IMG/VR virus record: IMGVR_UViG_3300033571_021637
Location: 1 to 63,862 of that record
Source of the DNA: a virus
Direction: 5' to 3' (one strand)
DNA length: 63,862 bases
The notes beneath the pieces are model-generated. The model was not told the origin of the DNA and made no database searches. It was given only the letters and a program-made list of their open reading frames with translations. How positions within the stretch are numbered: position 1 is the first letter of the stretch; each line of letters begins with the position of its first letter. Positions 25,754-43,452 of the stretch are shown piece after piece. The position numbers and the translations under genes were made by a program.

Positions 25754-28161
<2,408 letters not shown>

Positions 28162-35658: not shown

Positions 35659-36795
35659 ATGCACCTAGTAATAGACGGAAATGCCTTTATCAATGTTGCG
35701 ATTAGCGTGACCAAATCAGTCACGTCTAGGGACAAGTCGATTGGTGAAGTGTACTATGTCGAAGATCTATTCAACGATGGTTTTCGTCTAAAGGACGCAG
35801 TTAGGATTTCTTATAGAAACTTCTGTTTTACTTATCTAAATTCCCTGATCGCTTCAATGTCGTCTACTCCAAGCAAGATTCACATCGTGTTTGATTCAAA
35901 CAGTTGGAGAAAAGATTACACAAACGACTTCTTTAAGGACTCAGATTTTAAATCGTCTGCTGCTCCTCAAGAGTTTAAGTATAAGGGAACTAGAAGGTAT
36001 GACGAGTTTCAATACTTGTTCTTTGATTACTTTCAACAAACGATAATGCCGCATCTCGTTGAGAAATGCGGCATCAATCAATATAGGTTTAAAGGAACTG
36101 AGGGCGACGACATAATCGCTCATCTTTGTGAGATATTAAATGACGACGTCTTGATATACTCAGTTGACCAAGACCTTAAGCAACTCACAGGTACACCTAA
36201 TAAGAACGTTTTACTCATTGTTCCTAAGCAGATGGCCAAACACAAAAGACTGTTTGTTCCGGTTAGTTTAGTTCCTCTTCAAGCTGAGGAAGAAGAAGAA
36301 AATTTCTTTTCTTTAAACATGGATCACATAAGCGGTTCCAGCATAGAGAAAGTCATTTCTACTCTTAAGAATAAGGAATATGTTGAACACAAAGTAGATT
36401 TCATAAATGAAGTCCTAACTAAAGTGTTTTTAGGAGACAAATCAGACAACATCCCAAAGATAACTAATTTGACTCCATCTAGGTCTCAAAAGCTAATAAT
36501 AAACATATCTGAACAATTCGGTGAAAGTTTAATGAAGAGCTTAGACTCACTAGATTCAGTGTTTATCAATGAAGTTGCTACACAAATCCAAACTGTTACT
36601 AAGGCTAAGGACACAGGTAATTTAGATGAAATCAGGGAACACTTACTATTTAATATTAAGCTAACTCGTCTTTCAACTAAAGTATTCCCTGAAGAAATTA
36701 GAGATACACTAGAGCAGTTCTTTAAATCGTATTCACCTACTTCCTTTAATCAAAAGGAGTTTATGAACCTAAAAAATAATCTATCATCTATATGA
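35659..36795 (+). CDS. rnh: RNase H / 5'-3' exonuclease (T4 Rnh, FEN-1 family)
   Basis: The 378-residue protein is the flap/5' nuclease type of T4 RNase H (305 residues) and removes primers on the lagging strand. Visible acidic motifs are LVIDGNAF at the N-terminus, FKGTEGDDIIAHL, VLIYSVDQDLKQLTG and FLGDKSDNIPKI. The last contains the helix-hairpin-helix-side Asp pair that binds the second metal. A roughly 70-residue acidic insertion (about 208-250, LQAEEEEENFF) separates the third and fourth motifs. The GroES gene starts 4 nt before its stop. Confidence 0.85.
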   Translation: MHLVIDGNAFINVAISVTKSVTSRDKSIGEVYYVEDLFNDGFRLKDAVRISYRNFCFTYLNSLIASMSSTPSKIHIVFDSNSWRKDYTNDFFKDSDFKSSAAPQEFKYKGTRRYDEFQYLFFDYFQQTIMPHLVEKCGINQYRFKGTEGDDIIAHLCEILNDDVLIYSVDQDLKQLTGTPNKNVLLIVPKQMAKHKRLFVPVSLVPLQAEEEEENFFSLNMDHISGSSIEKVISTLKNKEYVEHKVDFINEVLTKVFLGDKSDNIPKITNLTPSRSQKLIINISEQFGESLMKSLDSLDSVFINEVATQIQTVTKAKDTGNLDEIREHLLFNIKLTRLSTKVFPEEIRDTLEQFFKSYSPTSFNQKEFMNLKNNLSSI

Positions 36796-37091
36796 AACCC
36801 TTATACGAAAGAGTTTTAGTAAAACCTAAAGAAAAAGAGACACGTACTTCTCAAGGAATCCTTCTTCCTGAAAAGGCAGTAAAGAAACCAAACATAGGTA
36901 CAGTCGTTTCTTGTGGAGACGGATCCGTAAGTAATCCGATGTTAGTTAAGTCTGGCGACCTTATTCTATTTAACAGATATGCAGGCGCTGAACTTTACTA
37001 TAAAGGCGAGAAACACTATGTGATAATGTCTAATGAGATCATTGGGATACTTGATGACCCTGAAGATATTTCTTTGGACGAGTTTGAATAG
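36792..37091 (+). CDS. groES: GroES-type cochaperonin
   Basis: The 99-residue protein is a standard GroES: KPLYERVLVKP opens the barrel, and the mobile loop TRTSQGILLPEKA holds the hydrophobic ILL that docks on GroEL. IGTVVSCGDG and VKSGDLILFNRYAG complete the fold, and VIMSNEIIGIL closes it. It is nearer to bacterial GroES than to the divergent T4 gp31. With GroEL at 26512 the pair is complete, though the two genes lie 9 kb apart and outside any common operon. The C-terminal extension is acidic. The start overlaps the RNase H stop by 4 nt, and a bidirectional terminator follows. Confidence 0.92.
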   Translation: MKPLYERVLVKPKEKETRTSQGILLPEKAVKKPNIGTVVSCGDGSVSNPMLVKSGDLILFNRYAGAELYYKGEKHYVIMSNEIIGILDDPEDISLDEFE

Positions 37092-37113
37092 CCTAAAAAT
37101 CAAACTAAAAAAG

Positions 37114-37138
37114 AAAAGGGAGCAATTAGCTCCCTTTT
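37114..37138. terminator. Bidirectional terminator between groES and the signalling cassette
   Basis: AAAAGGGAGC pairs with GCTCCCTTTT around the loop AATTA. The T run continues on the plus side and the A run supplies one on the minus side, so it can end both the plus-strand replication unit and the minus-strand sheath-lysin-kinase unit. Confidence 0.88.
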
Positions 37139-37156
37139 TTATTTTAAGTAACAATA

Positions 37157-37747
37157 TTAATTTTTTTCTGATGCATATTTAACACCCATAATAGTTCCAA
37201 CTATTGAAAATGCATTAGTTAATAATATTCCAAACATATTTGCCCAAGTTGAACCTATAATTTGTGTATCTTTGTCATTTATTAAAGCGAACATATACAT
37301 TAATGTAGTAACAGAACCAACTCCAATGATAACATATAGGGCTACCTTAACGATAGTTCCTATTAGCTCAGTTTGAGTTTTCTTTTGTAAAACATCTAAA
37401 TCGTTTAATGCAATTTCTTTTGCGTCTTCGGCTTTTTTCGCAGATTCCATAGCTTCAACTTTCGAGTTTTCAGCTAATATTAAAGCAACTTTAAGATCTT
37501 CCATTAACTTTTGATTTTCCTCTTGTGAAGATAAAAGATCTTTATTTTGATTCTGTACTTGTTTTGTAATTTCTAATCTTCTCCTTCTAGAGGACTTATC
37601 TTTATCTATAGCATTTTTAAGATATTCGTTAAATTCTACATCTTCAGGATCTTCATCGATAATCTTTAAGATGTTTCCTTCTAACAATATCTTATTCTCT
37701 TTAAATGCCTTGATTATAAAGTCTCTAGTGGATTTGTCGGCTTTCAT
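37157..37747 (-). CDS. Membrane protein with N-terminal coiled coil, end of the signalling cassette
   Basis: The 196-residue protein has a charged helical N-terminal part and a coiled coil at about residues 58-125 (QNQNKDLLSSQEENQKLMED, KVEAMESAKKAEDAKEIAL). Two membrane helices follow: about 128-152 (ELIGTIVKVALYVIIGVGSV) and about 165-188. There is no signal peptide, so the coil should face the cytoplasm. The start codon overlaps the receiver gene's stop by one base (TAATG). It could be the output partner of the receiver or, given the endolysin upstream in the same unit, a holin-like or lysis-control protein. Neither idea can be proved here. Base composition is visibly lower in GC than the surrounding phage genes. 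Confidence 0.55.
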   Translation of the reverse strand: MKADKSTRDFIIKAFKENKILLEGNILKIIDEDPEDVEFNEYLKNAIDKDKSSRRRRLEITKQVQNQNKDLLSSQEENQKLMEDLKVALILAENSKVEAMESAKKAEDAKEIALNDLDVLQKKTQTELIGTIVKVALYVIIGVGSVTTLMYMFALINDKDTQIIGSTWANMFGILLTNAFSIVGTIMGVKYASEKN

Positions 37748-38184
37748 TACTTATAAATTTTAAAAGGAGCTCTTTTACTTCTATATCCTTCGTAATCTTT
37801 TTTGAATTCTTCTAATCTAGGTTCAATTTCATCTGATTTGATAATCCAGAATTGTGCACCGACTGCTTTAGCTTTGTCGATCTCTTGTATATCGGATGAA
37901 GATGATATAATACCAATCACACAACCATTACCATATTCATGATTGATTTTACGAATCATTTCAATTCCATCAAACGATGAACCAACAATATTAAGGTCTA
38001 CGAAAACACAATCAGGTTTTTCATGATTAGGATCGTCCGGAAACCATTTCTTGAAAAGTTTATCTGCCTCATCAGAAGAAGAAAGAGCTTCAAAAGAAAG
38101 TGATATATCTAGAAGACTGCAAGCGTCTTCGAAAACAAGATGAAAAAGATTTTCATCGTCTATTAGCATTATTGAATTAATCAT
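37747..38184 (-). CDS. Response regulator, single receiver domain
   Basis: The 145-residue protein is one receiver domain of the CheY type. The acidic pair D9/D10 (MLIDDEN), phosphoacceptor D63 (CVFVDLN), the Ser at about 94-97 (GIISSSSD) and conserved K116 (WIIKSDE) are all in place. No DNA-binding or other output domain follows; only about 25 extra residues remain. Output must therefore be by protein contact, as in CheY or Spo0F. Its ATG overlaps the kinase stop (ATGA), so the kinase is its obvious partner. Finding a complete acceptor site makes a decayed gene unlikely. Confidence 0.88.
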   Translation of the reverse strand: MINSIMLIDDENLFHLVFEDACSLLDISLSFEALSSSDEADKLFKKWFPDDPNHEKPDCVFVDLNIVGSSFDGIEMIRKINHEYGNGCVIGIISSSSDIQEIDKAKAVGAQFWIIKSDEIEPRLEEFKKDYEGYRSKRAPFKIYK

Positions 38185-39065
38185 TTTATCTTAATTTTTA
38201 TTTGTGTGCCTTGGGCTATTTTTTCAGCGGTAACATCAAAATTATGTTCCTTTATTATTGCTATACAAATTCCAAGTCCAAGTCCACTGCCTTCTTCTTT
38301 TTGATTTTCTCTTCTCTTATTTTGTCTTGAGTATTCAATTAACTCTTCATTAGATAAACCTCTACCGTTATCTTGTACGATTAAGGTTTCGTTATCTAAC
38401 ATATAGATGATTACCAACTTATTTTCGGAATCATTATATTTAAGACCATTTCTAATTAGATTATCCACAGCTGTACAAAACAAAGATTCATTAATTCTTG
38501 CAGTTGGTAAAACATCAATAATAACCTGATCTTTGTATGAAGTAGTTTCCAAGTATTTTCTTAAGCATTCATCAAGTTTAACTTCTTTAAACTCCAGAGA
38601 TTTTCCTTGTTTTACTAGGTTAGTAAATTCATAAACTCCTTTATAAACTTTTTGAGTATGTATAAGTCCTTCTCTAAGTAGTTTTAGAGGAGATGCTAGA
38701 TTATATTGCTCGATTACTTCGGTGGGTATTCTTCTTTCTAAAGAACTTATTCCTCTTGGTATGTAAACGTTAATTCCTGAATGCATATCATGTCGAAGAA
38801 TCTTAGCTGCATGTTCTAAGTATGTATTCTTATATTGTAGCTGATCTACCGTCAATTGATGTATTCTTTCCTTCTCTCGTAAGAAGTCTCGAACAAACAA
38901 ATATGCCGGAGGACAGAATGCGATAAAACATCCATACTCAATCCAATTAGTTGCCCAGCATTGTTCAAATATACCCAATAGAGTAAAAGACTTAACAATA
39001 AAGAATATAAGCATACATAAGCCAGCTATCCCTAATGTTACTTTACTTCTAGTTGATATTATCAC
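38181..39065 (-). CDS. Membrane sensor histidine kinase
   Basis: The 294-residue protein has two membrane helices (about 9-33 and 43-58) with a very short outer loop (FEQCWATNWIE). A cytoplasmic coil follows (60-88), then the H-box ILRHDMHSGIN with phosphoacceptor H92. The HATPase core has the N-box (AVDNLIRNGLKYND), G1 (VQDNGRGL, D232) and G2 (GSGLGLGICIAIIKEH, 259-274). All catalytic boxes are intact. With almost no extracellular domain, the signal is probably sensed within the membrane or through a partner. It overlaps the YceI-like gene by 17 nt and the receiver gene by 4 nt. Two-component pairs are rare in phages. Confidence 0.88.
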   Translation of the reverse strand: MIISTRSKVTLGIAGLCMLIFFIVKSFTLLGIFEQCWATNWIEYGCFIAFCPPAYLFVRDFLREKERIHQLTVDQLQYKNTYLEHAAKILRHDMHSGINVYIPRGISSLERRIPTEVIEQYNLASPLKLLREGLIHTQKVYKGVYEFTNLVKQGKSLEFKEVKLDECLRKYLETTSYKDQVIIDVLPTARINESLFCTAVDNLIRNGLKYNDSENKLVIIYMLDNETLIVQDNGRGLSNEELIEYSRQNKRRENQKEEGSGLGLGICIAIIKEHNFDVTAEKIAQGTQIKIKIK

Positions 39066-39585
39066 ATGATTCCATCATTTGTATATTAACCATAAGCTTA
39101 ACTTCATCACCAATCAAAAGTGAACCTTTACCACCTTCTAGGTTGAATGTTAAACCCCAGTCTTTTCGGTTTATAGATCCATTAAGTTCGAATCCATATT
39201 TGGTTTGCCCGTACGCATCTACATCATTTCCGTTATAATTTCCAGATAGGGTTACTTCTCTAGAAACTCCTTTGATTGTTAAATTTCCTACGATTACGTA
39301 TTCATCGTCTTTCTTTTCTACTTTAGAGGATTCGAAAGTTAAATGAGGGAAATTATCAACATCAAAAAAGTCAGGTCCTTTTAAATGATTATCACGATCA
39401 GTGATGTTAGTTGATATCGTGTTAACTTTTGCCTGAAACCAAATTTTAGCATCGGAAAAATCTTCAGTATTAGATTCCATAGTTGCATCAAATTCTCCGA
39501 AAAATCCGTTAACATTAGATATCATTAGATGTTTAATTCTAAATGATACATCCGAATGCAATGGATCAATTTTGTAATTTTTCAT
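39049..39585 (-). CDS. YceI-like lipid-binding lipocalin-fold protein
   Basis: The 178-residue protein is a full YceI domain: YKIDPLHSDVSFRIKHLMIS at the start, VNGFFGEFDATM, HLKGPDFFDVDNFPHLTFES, IVGNLTIKGVSREVTLSGNY and FELNGSINRKDWGL. YceI proteins form a beta-barrel that binds isoprenoid-type lipids. Most bacterial forms are secreted, but this one has no signal peptide and should stay in the cytoplasm. It lies between endolysin (9 nt upstream) and the kinase (17-nt overlap), so a lipid-sensing role for the cassette is tempting. That link is an inference. Confidence 0.88.
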   Translation of the reverse strand: MKNYKIDPLHSDVSFRIKHLMISNVNGFFGEFDATMESNTEDFSDAKIWFQAKVNTISTNITDRDNHLKGPDFFDVDNFPHLTFESSKVEKKDDEYVIVGNLTIKGVSREVTLSGNYNGNDVDAYGQTKYGFELNGSINRKDWGLTFNLEGGKGSLLIGDEVKLMVNIQMMESCDNIN

Positions 39586-39594
39586 AAATAAGTT

Positions 39595-40440
39595 TTATTT
39601 TAAAAGAGCATAATACTCTTTGAAGTGTTTAATACGATCGGCAAGACCAATAGTACCACCATTTACTCTTTTAGTTACTGATGTTACGGTTGCGTCGTCT
39701 GATCCTTTATCACAAATAGACCAAAGTTTATTTGAATCAAAGAAGAAAGCTGCAGAAGCAAGAGGATATTTAGTAGCGACTAAGTCCGGATTTGCTACTG
39801 TGTCTTCACCTATAAACTTAGCAAAGTTAGTGTAGTTAGACTTTCCAGTCAATTGGATGTATCCTCTACCTCTAAACTTAAATCCTTCTTTAGTAGACTC
39901 ATCTCCATTACCCATTCTTCCTCCATAAACTCTAGAAGCAATCATTTCAGGTTTTCTTTCATACTGTGTAGCTGTTGCTGAATTAAAGTATTTAGGGAAT
40001 GTACCTAATAGACCTTTTGCGCTATAATTTAAGTTTTCAGAAACTGCTTTAAATCCTCCAGACTCATGACCGCATTGTGCTAAGAAATGAGCTAGTCTAA
40101 GAGGAGTGTTACAGTTAAACTTCTCAATTATTTCTGGGATCTGAGATAAGACTGCGTCTGGAACGTGTCCCTTAAGTCTGTTTAAATCAATCTTTCCAGA
40201 AGAAACTGGAGCGGCTGCTGGTGCAGCTGGTGCAGCTACTGATTCAGTAACTCCTCCAAATAGTTTAGACCAAGTAGCATCGCCTACTATACCGTCGTCA
40301 TTTAAACCATTTGCCTTTTGCCAAGCCTTAACTGCAGCTTCGGTTTTAGGTCCAAAGTTACCTACTGGATCTACTCCAAGTTTTTGTTGTAGCTTAACAA
40401 CGTCGTCTCCTTTACTTCCAAGTTTTAACAACATCTTCAA
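39595..40440 (-). CDS. Endolysin: peptidoglycan-binding domain plus GH19 lysozyme/chitinase-like domain
   Basis: The 281-residue protein has an N-terminal peptidoglycan-binding domain (about 1-62, SKGDDVVKLQQKLGVDPVGN and GIVGDATWSKL) and an Ala/Pro linker (66-80). A GH19 catalytic domain follows. Likely catalytic glutamates are E126 in AQCGHESGGF and E135 in AVSENLNYS. FRGRGYIQLTGKSNY is the family's substrate-groove block. It lacks a signal peptide, so it needs a holin or similar for release. It sits 12 nt after the tail sheath stop and so is in the late unit that begins at 43452. Confidence 0.92.
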   Translation of the reverse strand: MKMLLKLGSKGDDVVKLQQKLGVDPVGNFGPKTEAAVKAWQKANGLNDDGIVGDATWSKLFGGVTESVAAPAAPAAAPVSSGKIDLNRLKGHVPDAVLSQIPEIIEKFNCNTPLRLAHFLAQCGHESGGFKAVSENLNYSAKGLLGTFPKYFNSATATQYERKPEMIASRVYGGRMGNGDESTKEGFKFRGRGYIQLTGKSNYTNFAKFIGEDTVANPDLVATKYPLASAAFFFDSNKLWSICDKGSDDATVTSVTKRVNGGTIGLADRIKHFKEYYALLK

Positions 40441-40452
40441 TTTATTTTTTTA

Positions 40453-43452
40453 TTAGAAGCTAGGGATAAATCCTGTAGCGTCTGAACTTAAAGTTCCTCC
40501 TACTCTAGTGATAGTGATTCGGTTGATGAACTTTTGAATTCCTCTTGGGAAATCTACTCTAATGTCCAATACCGCAGCATTAGCTGATATCACTTCGCCA
40601 GTGTTGTTTGAAGTATCAAAGATAACTTCATAAGAACTAATACCTCTAGCATTAACTACTGCATCTAAGTAATTTTCAACGATTGTTCTAACTCTAAGTC
40701 TTGTGATCTCATCATTGAAATCAAACAAGAAGTTGAATAAGATTCGTTCGATATCTCTTTCGATAGTAGATAAGTTATCTCTAACATGAGCATTGTTAAG
40801 AGCTGAATTGATTCTTTGGTATGCAGTATTGTTTGAGAACAAGATAGTTCCAAATCCTCTTCTTCTAACGATAAGGTTGAATCCTGCAGGCTCTAAGAAA
40901 TCTCTATCTGCATCCGTTAAGTCGTATTCTAATCCTACTAATTCAGGATCTGTGATTGCTCCACGTTTTCCACCAGCTACGATCAAGAATGGTGTTCCGT
41001 TCTTGAATTTTCTAACGTATAAGTTAGAGATGTATGCTGCAGGCGGAACTGAGATGTTTCTAGATCCGCTTCTAACGATAACGTTAGGGAAAGTGTAGTT
41101 GGCATAAGAAGACAATGGAACTCCATTAACGTCTTCTTCAGCAAACTTAAACGTGAACTCTGGGTTAAGAGACAAGTTACCACCAGTTGAAATATACTCA
41201 GAAGAAACTAATTTGCTAACTGGGTTGATAAAGCTTGGTGTAACTGATTTCTCAAACTGTCTTATTGACGGAGCATTAAGTAAAGCCATAGCTTGTCCGT
41301 GCATTGCTGCAATCTTCGCCAAGTAATATTTAGAGTTGCTTGAGATCTCACCTTCATAAGAGTCAACTACATATCTAAAGTCAACCAATTCACCATTAGC
41401 TAACGCTTCTGGTATTGAAGTGTAATTAAATAAGTAGCTTAAGATGTTGGCTTGACGATCTGCAGTTCCGTTAGGAAGAGAAGCATCTCTTAGTCTGAAA
41501 GAACCTAAGTTTTGACCTTTTAATTCAGTCACGAAGTTATAGATTCCTTTGTAAACTTTCAATTCGCTACCGTCTACATCAAGTCCAATGATATCGTCAA
41601 CACTAGGAGCCATAGTCGTAACTGTGTAAGTCAAAGCATATGGACTAAGCTCTTCAGCAGAAGATACTGAAATTATCTTTAATAATCTAGGTCTAACTGA
41701 TCCAGCAACCTTAGCTTTAATGAAGTTGTTTACTTTAATAAACTCGTCGATCTTAGCTTTGTTTGCAGTGTTAGTAGTATTGATTCCTAATACGATCTTG
41801 TTAGGTTGTTGAGCATCGTAACTTGTAAAGAATGTAGTATCAGTCAAGTCAAACGTATGTTTAAACTCAGCACCATTATCTAATACTACTTTGATATAGT
41901 CTTCTGAATCTGGTCCAGTGTAATAGTTAGTGTTTACTTGGTTTAATAACGTTATGTCTTGGTATGTAGCAATCTTAACATAGTTAAATCCACCGCTAAT
42001 CAAGTTGTCAGTAGTCTTAATGTAGTATGTGTTTGTGCCATCAATCATAGTGTCTCCGTTTCTCAAGAAACCTTTAGCGTATGCTTGATAAAGTTTACTA
42101 CCTTCCATTGCTGCAAGATACTCATCTCCTGATGCAGGAACTACTAAGTATGTGTCTCCTAAAGCAACTGGTGTTGCTCCTGGAGTATCATTGTATCCAG
42201 CTAAGAAATCAACTTCATCTAACGTGTTTACGCTAGGGTTATTGCTGATTAAGAAGATCAAGTTAGAGTCTGCCGGTCTAGTGTAGCTCAATAAGTCAAT
42301 CAATGGAGTTGCGTCAGCTGTATCTAAAGGAGAACCTGTAACATCGTATCCACCGTCATCTGCAGTGTATGTGTCTTGAGAATCAAGTTCGTCAAAACCA
42401 TGACCAATCAAGTCAATTCGGTGAGTCTCCATGTCGTTATCTACGAATCCGGTAGTATCTAAGTTAACTAAGTCAAGTTTTTCAGCATCGATCGCACAAA
42501 GAACTCCAGTGCTAGCAAAAACTCTATTTACTAAGGCATCTACTGATACTGTGTTTCCAGACTGATCTCTAAATCCAGGGATCAAACTTCCGATTGTTCT
42601 GTTAATCACTTTAATCTCTCTTAATGCAAAGAAATCAGTAGATTTTTCTGCTCTTAATCCAGCTGGAGTAAAGAACTGACTGTAAACAGGGTCTTTTGCT
42701 AATTTTAAGTAGTTAGACCAGTCACCATTAATAACGATAACTTCAACGAAATAATCAGAGATGAAATCGTCTGGGTGAACGAATGAAGGGAATTCAATAG
42801 CATTTCCTCCACCGATCGTTGAATACCATTCCTTAGCAGTAACGTCGTATCCTGTGATGCTTGCTCTTCTTACCCAAATCGTCAAGTTAGAATTTCCTAA
42901 GTTAACAAATGATAATACTTTATTTGAAGTTGAAGTAGTGTTTCCAAATCCTCCAGGGTTGTTAATATAATCGTCACCAAGTGCAAGGTTTTTTGACTTG
43001 TTCAACTCATCGTCGCTAGCAAACCAAAGTCTTCTTCTGTTGAAGAACTCTACTGCTGGCCATTGGTCAGGTAAAGATTGATTATTGTTTGAAGTTGATT
43101 CAGTATTGAATGTAGTGAAGTATGCCTGATCTAAGTTAAGAGCAGGATCGTCTTCCGTGTCTAACGGCATAACGTTTAATGCAAAAACAGGACCTTCTCT
43201 CAAAGCAACCTCGATTGTTCTGTGGAAGTAGCTTCCTGCTTTTTCTAGTTTAGGGTCAATTTCACCGAATACTGCTCTAAGAGTTCTAACGTCATTGATT
43301 AACACAACTGTGTTGAAAGGCCCTACCTTACTCGATCCAACCACAAGTCTTCCTGTGGTAAGAGGTAAAACTACGTTCTCGCTAGCGTCTATTTCAATGG
43401 TATAGACACCACTAGACTTGAAGTTATTTAAGTTTACTCTTGGTTCTGCCAT
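40453..43452 (-). CDS. gp18: Tail sheath protein, T4 gp18 family
   Basis: The 999-residue protein is longer than T4 gp18 (659), the extra length lying in the middle domains exposed on the surface. The N-terminal segment has the sheath opening VNLNNFKSSGVYTIEID, then GRLVVGSSKVGPFNTVVLIN. The conserved C-terminal domain includes GFNLIVRRRGFGTILFSNNT, NVRDNLSTIERDIERILFNF-like helices and the final beta strand exchanged between subunits (IQKFINRITITRVGG). Sheath contraction drives the tube through the envelope. The first gene of its late unit, with ATAAATAA 20 nt before the ATG, it is followed by the endolysin. Confidence 0.9.
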   Translation of the reverse strand: MAEPRVNLNNFKSSGVYTIEIDASENVVLPLTTGRLVVGSSKVGPFNTVVLINDVRTLRAVFGEIDPKLEKAGSYFHRTIEVALREGPVFALNVMPLDTEDDPALNLDQAYFTTFNTESTSNNNQSLPDQWPAVEFFNRRRLWFASDDELNKSKNLALGDDYINNPGGFGNTTSTSNKVLSFVNLGNSNLTIWVRRASITGYDVTAKEWYSTIGGGNAIEFPSFVHPDDFISDYFVEVIVINGDWSNYLKLAKDPVYSQFFTPAGLRAEKSTDFFALREIKVINRTIGSLIPGFRDQSGNTVSVDALVNRVFASTGVLCAIDAEKLDLVNLDTTGFVDNDMETHRIDLIGHGFDELDSQDTYTADDGGYDVTGSPLDTADATPLIDLLSYTRPADSNLIFLISNNPSVNTLDEVDFLAGYNDTPGATPVALGDTYLVVPASGDEYLAAMEGSKLYQAYAKGFLRNGDTMIDGTNTYYIKTTDNLISGGFNYVKIATYQDITLLNQVNTNYYTGPDSEDYIKVVLDNGAEFKHTFDLTDTTFFTSYDAQQPNKIVLGINTTNTANKAKIDEFIKVNNFIKAKVAGSVRPRLLKIISVSSAEELSPYALTYTVTTMAPSVDDIIGLDVDGSELKVYKGIYNFVTELKGQNLGSFRLRDASLPNGTADRQANILSYLFNYTSIPEALANGELVDFRYVVDSYEGEISSNSKYYLAKIAAMHGQAMALLNAPSIRQFEKSVTPSFINPVSKLVSSEYISTGGNLSLNPEFTFKFAEEDVNGVPLSSYANYTFPNVIVRSGSRNISVPPAAYISNLYVRKFKNGTPFLIVAGGKRGAITDPELVGLEYDLTDADRDFLEPAGFNLIVRRRGFGTILFSNNTAYQRINSALNNAHVRDNLSTIERDIERILFNFLFDFNDEITRLRVRTIVENYLDAVVNARGISSYEVIFDTSNNTGEVISANAAVLDIRVDFPRGIQKFINRITITRVGGTLSSDATGFIPSF

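Follow-up and report, generated by a model that had tools for sequence, protein, structure and literature searches.

To our knowledge, the signals read by phages before lysis have been worked out in very few cases, one being T4-type lysis inhibition. In phage T4, a periplasmic antiholin with a cleavable signal peptide binds a one-helix holin with a periplasmic domain (PMC11413866). Holin activity that depends on a signal, and with it the time of lysis, as in the T4 T/RI system (PMC11413866), is also the outcome proposed for the locus described here, but the components would be a kinase, a receiver and a two-helix protein with a cytoplasmic stalk, with no sequence relation to T/RI. The AlphaFold2 model of the two-helix protein (MEM) departs from the T/RI pattern, as its large domain is N-terminal to a short-loop hairpin and a signal peptide is absent. 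Like class II phage holins, MEM carries a C-terminal two-helix hairpin whose loop is short, lacks a signal peptide and is encoded beside an endolysin gene; unlike them, it has a large N-terminal module and a stalk, and it matches no holin family above cut-off.

The signaling components have a second set of relatives. As in CheY/Spo0F-type systems, a histidine kinase (HK) with H, N, G1 and G2 boxes and a single-domain receiver (RR) are encoded side by side, but here the pair is phage-borne and the third partner is a coiled-coil membrane hairpin instead of a DNA-binding domain or motor. In 224 jumbo phages surveyed, cREC is reported as a divergent receiver that never occurs with histidine kinases and goes with NAD/ADPr systems (PMC7824862). 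Both cREC and RR are phage proteins with a receiver fold, but RR goes with its own kinase and cREC does not (PMC7824862). The literature searched holds no report of a phage two-component system tied to lysis; this is weak evidence of novelty, because coverage of subscription journals was partial.

Organization of the Cassette

The window, meaning the whole stretch of DNA analyzed, is a virus record of 63,862 bases. It contains genes for a sheath, a UvsX-like recombinase, a DnaB-like helicase, ribonucleotide reductase, topoisomerase II and GroEL/GroES, and by its gene content belongs to a large contractile-tailed phage. The features of the region are as follows.

37112..37140, between the groES-like gene (plus strand) and the cassette (minus strand): bidirectional intrinsic terminator (scan of both strands, 10-12 pairs)
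37157..37747, minus strand: MEM, N-terminal module, long coiled-coil stalk and two-helix membrane hairpin (AlphaFold2, heptad stalk indels, synteny); probable output of the phosphorelay, holin-like or holin-regulating
37747..38184, minus strand: RR, stand-alone receiver with D9, D10, D63 and K116 (PF00072, Response_reg, 5.7e-8)
38181..39065, minus strand: HK, membrane histidine kinase with a GTG start (HATPase_c 5.3e-12)
39049..39585, minus strand: YceI-family polyisoprenoid-binding-like protein without a signal peptide (PF04264 1.7e-44, residues 4-169)
39595..40440, minus strand: endolysin (PG_binding_1 5e-14 and GH19 9e-9; phrog_181 endolysin 4.5e-68)
40453..43452, minus strand: tail sheath protein, first in the minus-strand gene run (phrog_34521 tail sheath 1.2e-91)

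Read along the minus strand, the order is tail sheath, GH19/PG-binding endolysin, YceI, HK, RR, MEM and the terminator, beyond which lies the opposing groES-like gene. A gap of 9 nt separates the endolysin from YceI, which shares 17 nt with HK; the stop of HK and the start of RR overlap as ATGA, and RR and MEM overlap by 1 nt. Because the junctions are this tight, the cassette is very probably a single translationally coupled unit. The open reading frames, their overlaps, the 9-nt gap and the terminator at the cassette end had all been proposed in the original prediction, and each was found in place; its further claim of an intact two-component pair joined in one tight unit to a lysis gene is likewise supported.

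The closest DNA matches to the window lysin are in uncultured huge phages and then in Flavobacterium phage immuto. Given these matches and the bacterial relatives of the triad (see below), phages carrying the triad are probably phages of Bacteroidota. The window encodes its own GroEL and GroES (26512-28161 and 36792-37091), and immuto likewise encodes both, a few kb away from its lysin. In a near-identical contig of a different sample, sheath and lysin are about 0.5 kb further apart, and the additional DNA (L013:6630-7145) holds a 152-aa ORF; the corresponding site in the window is 40440-40453.

Distribution and Conservation of the Triad

HK, YceI, RR and MEM were used as queries to scan IMG/VR, which gave at least 547 confirmed relatives of RR and at least 522 of MEM; the best 80 of each were taken for analysis. 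Among the matches listed, well over 100 IMG/VR loci have HK, RR and MEM as a fixed triad, on contigs that range from 4 to 430 kb. HK lies upstream and MEM downstream in 149 of 159 complete RR genes among the loci listed, with some contigs counted repeatedly. Nine of the ten exceptions are at contig ends (seven without a complete MEM, two without HK), and the tenth is a bacterial chromosome (L171). In all listed phage loci that reach that far, MEM is directly 3' of RR or within about 1.1 kb, with one or two additional genes in between in some lineages. This co-conservation, for which the original prediction had proposed a survey, extends to HK, RR and MEM and not to YceI. The same prediction treated the coiled-coil membrane protein as an extra, but the comparison makes it a near-obligate third component of the triad and the probable output.

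A few loci depart from the usual form. MEM genes occur without a detectable RR in records of 74.5 and 177.5 kb (L108:3150-3806 and L120:5574-6230), and in L006:2953-3394 MEM is split into two overlapping ORFs with neighbors that match L003, owing to either a frameshift or an assembly error. In one marine lineage, a 166-167-aa membrane/coiled-coil protein of no known family lies between RR and MEM (L068:8435-8935, L125:6905-7408). A rhodopsin gene also occurs between RR and MEM in two records (L125:7412-7990 and L173:6529-7107; IMG/VR 3300025671_009869 and 3300034375_009050), in the operon order amidase-HK-RR-167aa-rhodopsin-MEM. Its product matches Bac_rhodopsin (3.8e-12), has proteorhodopsin and viral OLPVRII as nearest solved relatives and seven predicted helices, and contains the Schiff-base Lys (DIAAK) and an RYxDW motif. 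Viral rhodopsins in the literature found are described from giant eukaryotic viruses only.

Outside uncultured viral contigs the triad is scarce, and none of its phage relatives comes from a cultured isolate. Among 50,697 records of named phages, RR and MEM have no match and HK has weak matches only; RR was found neither in immuto nor in the two huge phages with the nearest lysins. The view that complete two-component pairs are rare in phages therefore holds for named phages, for which no RR match was found, and fails for uncultured viral contigs, where the triad is common. A genome collection of 84,980 species yielded RR or MEM matches in three records only: L169, a contig with phage-like genes, and L170 and L171, Bacteroidetes MAG contigs with housekeeping neighbors. 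MEM matched 2 of 396 genomes sampled from the phylum of L170, one being that of L170 itself. Because it is abundant in viral contigs and nearly absent from bacterial genomes, the triad is, as far as these collections indicate, essentially a phage property.

Purifying selection is seen in the comparison of the window with L003, in which dN/dS is 0.035 for RR, 0.069 for HK, 0.060 for YceI and 0.295 for MEM, with synonymous sites near saturation. Distances for RR, MEM and the HK core are correlated (Mantel r 0.40-0.45, p 0.001), consistent with joint descent of the three genes. Gene order kept in distant contigs, together with low dN/dS, places the cassette beyond chance as judged from these comparisons.

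Kinase, Receiver and Sensor Regions

The residues needed for phosphotransfer chemistry are retained. The window HK has H92 (in RHDMHSGIN), N box residues N202/N206, the G1 box DNGRG at 232-236 and G2 box residues G261/G263; RR has, besides the four residues listed above, S94 and W113, which we place by analogy to CheY. Among the distinct HKs listed, the His box and the G1 box are present in 115/115, the N box in 113/115 and the G2 box in 114/115. Every distinct RR listed (112/112) has the motifs for DD, phospho-Asp, Ser/Thr and Lys; since the pattern used to search for RR required the DD region, only the other motifs are independent evidence. Decay or loss of kinase and receiver in most relatives, which the original prediction had named as grounds for abandoning it, was looked for and not seen in the loci listed. 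The claim that both proteins are intact is borne out by the window residues, the homologues and the HATPase_c and Response_reg matches, and by sequence both would be functional.

The sensor part varies. The window HK has no PAS or GAF domain, and its H-box RHDMHSGIN has no match to Pfam HisKA. The matches listed comprise 52 non-redundant loci (RR clusters below 90% identity). Of 52 HKs, 27 match PAS_9 and 6 match GAF. Many HKs have an N-terminal membrane segment alone as sensor part, and some cassettes have two HKs.

MEM and Its Stalk

MEM has hydrophobic segments at 128-146 and 171-189 and is the only protein of the window with two strong ones. The AlphaFold2 model, built with 70 homologues (pLDDT 87, pTM 0.38), has helices at 5-18 and 26-29, an unbroken helix from 37 to 156 that runs into the membrane and a second membrane helix at 162-195. 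The N-terminal module is short, with invariant residues E23, G24, Y42, D50, R54 and R57, and is followed by variable coil. The second helix of the hairpin is nearly invariant (ILLTN.FSI.GTIMGVKY). A fold search found no significant solved fold in the PDB, and the one match in BFVD is an uncharacterized homologue from an uncultured phage, 53% identical.

The stalk changes length in a restricted way. In 110 of 114 distinct proteins, the distance from the N-terminal anchor R..RL to the pre-membrane anchor L..LQKK is 49, 56, 63, 70, 77, 84 or 91 residues; in the remaining four it is 102, or 91 plus 11, and one further protein is outside the anchor pattern. Parsimony gives 30 stalk length changes among 66 MEMs below 80% identity, a rough count because the tree alignment includes the stalk. 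Since the changes are of heptads or of a single 11-residue step, module and membrane stay in phase, which would be expected of a coiled coil that relays a signal or has to remain continuous.

A bacterial relative suggests what the N-terminal module does. The Bacteroidetes MAG RH-18aug17-329 (L170:5709-9090) has HK, RR and a third gene in the same order as in phages, and its RR is 77% identical to that of phage locus L016. (In the RR tree spanning bacteria and phages, the root was set by choice.) The third gene begins with the MEM N-terminal module and coil but continues with HisKA and HATPase_c in place of the hairpin. No lysis gene family was found within 5 kb. Because the shared module is encoded directly downstream of a close relative of the phage receiver, with the effector exchanged, this module swap argues that the MEM module reads RR and that the rest of the protein is the output.

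Linkage to Lysis Genes

MEM is a membrane hairpin encoded close to an endolysin, as is typical of holins, and several known families were considered. The best Pfam holin match of MEM is Phage_holin_9 at 17.1 bits against a cut-off of 27; with E up to 0.1 allowed, 6 of 70 homologues match, much as they do to unrelated families. PHROGs holins likewise fall below cut-off, and phrog_1544 matches many MEMs weakly but also matches in control genomes. Homology between the MEM hairpin and the 67-aa immuto26A_82 is suggestive only, at 14.8 bits, a score reached by none of 2000 shuffles (best 14.7). Immuto26A_82 (L177:4310-4513, minus strand) is a two-helix protein in the immuto lysis region.

Several unrelated lysin families recur near the 52 RR clusters: GH19 at 11 loci, PG-binding amidase at 6, M15 peptidase at 7 and GH24 lysozyme at 4. 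For some flavophages, published work argues that the endolysin is a GH19 protein whose gene lies near holin-like genes (PMC8776804). Membrane proteins around the same clusters include an 82-aa holin-like protein without a known family at 19 loci and a Phage_holin_4-like gene at at least 11, so that MEM is not always the sole holin candidate. MEM itself could plausibly be the holin where no other exists, as in the window, and could modulate a separate holin where a Phage_holin_4-like gene coexists. Close upstream of HK, 16 of the 52 loci (L023:4340-4528 and 15 similar loci) encode a YgaP-like membrane protein of 62 aa; it has two helices and a CPSKW motif, and its YgaP-like match (E 1.9e-4) is below cut-off. 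Just upstream of the lysin operon in L173 are four related genes in tandem (L173:156-2855), in which LQSVGG..L motifs recur.

The proximity of lysin and receiver exceeds that of random placement. Twenty distinct records carry RR together with one or more PG_binding_1, M15_3 or phage lysozyme domains; such a domain is within 4.5 kb of RR in 16 of them, against a mean of 3.2 and a maximum of 11 in 20,000 random placements, trials that are not fully independent because some records are related. The lysin is far from RR in the other four. None of these three domains was found in 13 of 33 RR records, which may have other lysins, be fragments or reflect looser coupling. In immuto, which has no RR, an annotated holin is directly beside the homologous lysin; in the window, the cassette occupies that place. 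Lysis timing, one of two purposes offered in the original prediction, gains support from this link to lysins and holins, which is statistical and spans many relatives.

Proposed Mechanism and Alternatives

The best supported of the readings considered is a phage-borne phosphorelay that sets lysis time with MEM as output, to which we assign a probability of roughly 0.55. HK would sense a membrane or cytoplasmic signal, through a sensor part that differs between phages, and would phosphorylate the stand-alone RR. By protein contact rather than DNA binding, RR would act on the N-terminal module of MEM, which it may bind or release, as the L170 swap and RR-MEM adjacency suggest. The change would then travel along the register-locked coiled-coil stalk to the hairpin, a step that conservation of register supports. 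The hairpin, as a gated holin or the regulator of a separate one, would decide when the neighboring endolysin is released. We infer this effect on lysis from the linkage described above, and phosphorylation could have either sign, delaying or triggering it.

An improbable alternative is that the cassette guards the membrane against superinfection: the kinase would sense a second phage or membrane stress, and RR would make MEM alter the membrane so as to block DNA entry, with the position near lysis genes reflecting a region tolerant of such cargo. That MEM is a membrane protein, that many loci also have a separate holin-like gene and that some cassettes are distant from any detected lysin would all fit. 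Against such a guard stand the close linkage to several unrelated lysin types and the absence from the window of another two-helix holin candidate. Somewhat less probable is a diversion of host signaling, in which the phage HK and RR would feed or divert host phosphorelays while MEM anchors the receiver at the membrane. The same HK-RR pair does occur in two Bacteroidota chromosomes, in one of which the MEM module is fused to a kinase, but such bacterial relatives are very few in collections, RR hardly ever occurs apart from its own MEM, and the linkage to lysis genes would be left unexplained.

Sensing of membrane or lipid state was part of one hypothesis in the original prediction, and the comparison does not support such sensing through YceI as the core idea. 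As a reading of the cassette, it would have YceI bind a polyisoprenoid and present it to HK, which would report on membrane lipid or quinone state. The YceI-like domain covers the whole protein: PF04264 (1.7e-44) spans residues 4-169, and the closest solved structures are polyisoprenoid-binding proteins. The window protein has no hydrophobic stretch, which makes the proposed cytoplasmic location plausible. YceI overlaps HK in the window and adjoins the triad in L003, L016, L017, L018 and L019. However, among the matches listed YceI is in the neighborhood of 4 of the 52 non-redundant loci only, which excludes it as a general input, and the sensor part differs between phages. YceI is by this count an accessory to the triad, and lipid sensing, which applies to a minority of loci at most, is unlikely as the overall explanation. 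Hitchhiking of host genes without a role in the phage is very improbable, since, although HK and RR are members of abundant bacterial families, the triad is conserved, its catalytic residues are intact, its dN/dS is low and bacterial genomes nearly lack it.

Implications for Phage Biology

The window cassette is, on comparative grounds, one member of a widespread phage sensor module, so that the original prediction was right but understated. A lysis-timing phosphorelay of this kind would be a two-component system with a membrane-hairpin output driven through a coiled coil. As a tentative generalization that falls short of an even chance, Bacteroidota phages may commonly run lysis from a His-Asp phosphorelay with interchangeable sensors, one conserved receiver and a stalked holin or holin regulator of a new class, with a register-locked coil. 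The sensors would include a membrane segment, PAS, GAF, coupling to YceI and, in one lineage, a microbial rhodopsin. The module is recognizable by sequence and joins standard kinase and receiver biochemistry to a membrane output, which makes the question of lysis signals directly testable, and it offers a handle on uncultured phages whose genes are without functional annotation. If the generalization is true, these phages would adjust the moment of lysis to the state of the environment or host, and possibly to light.
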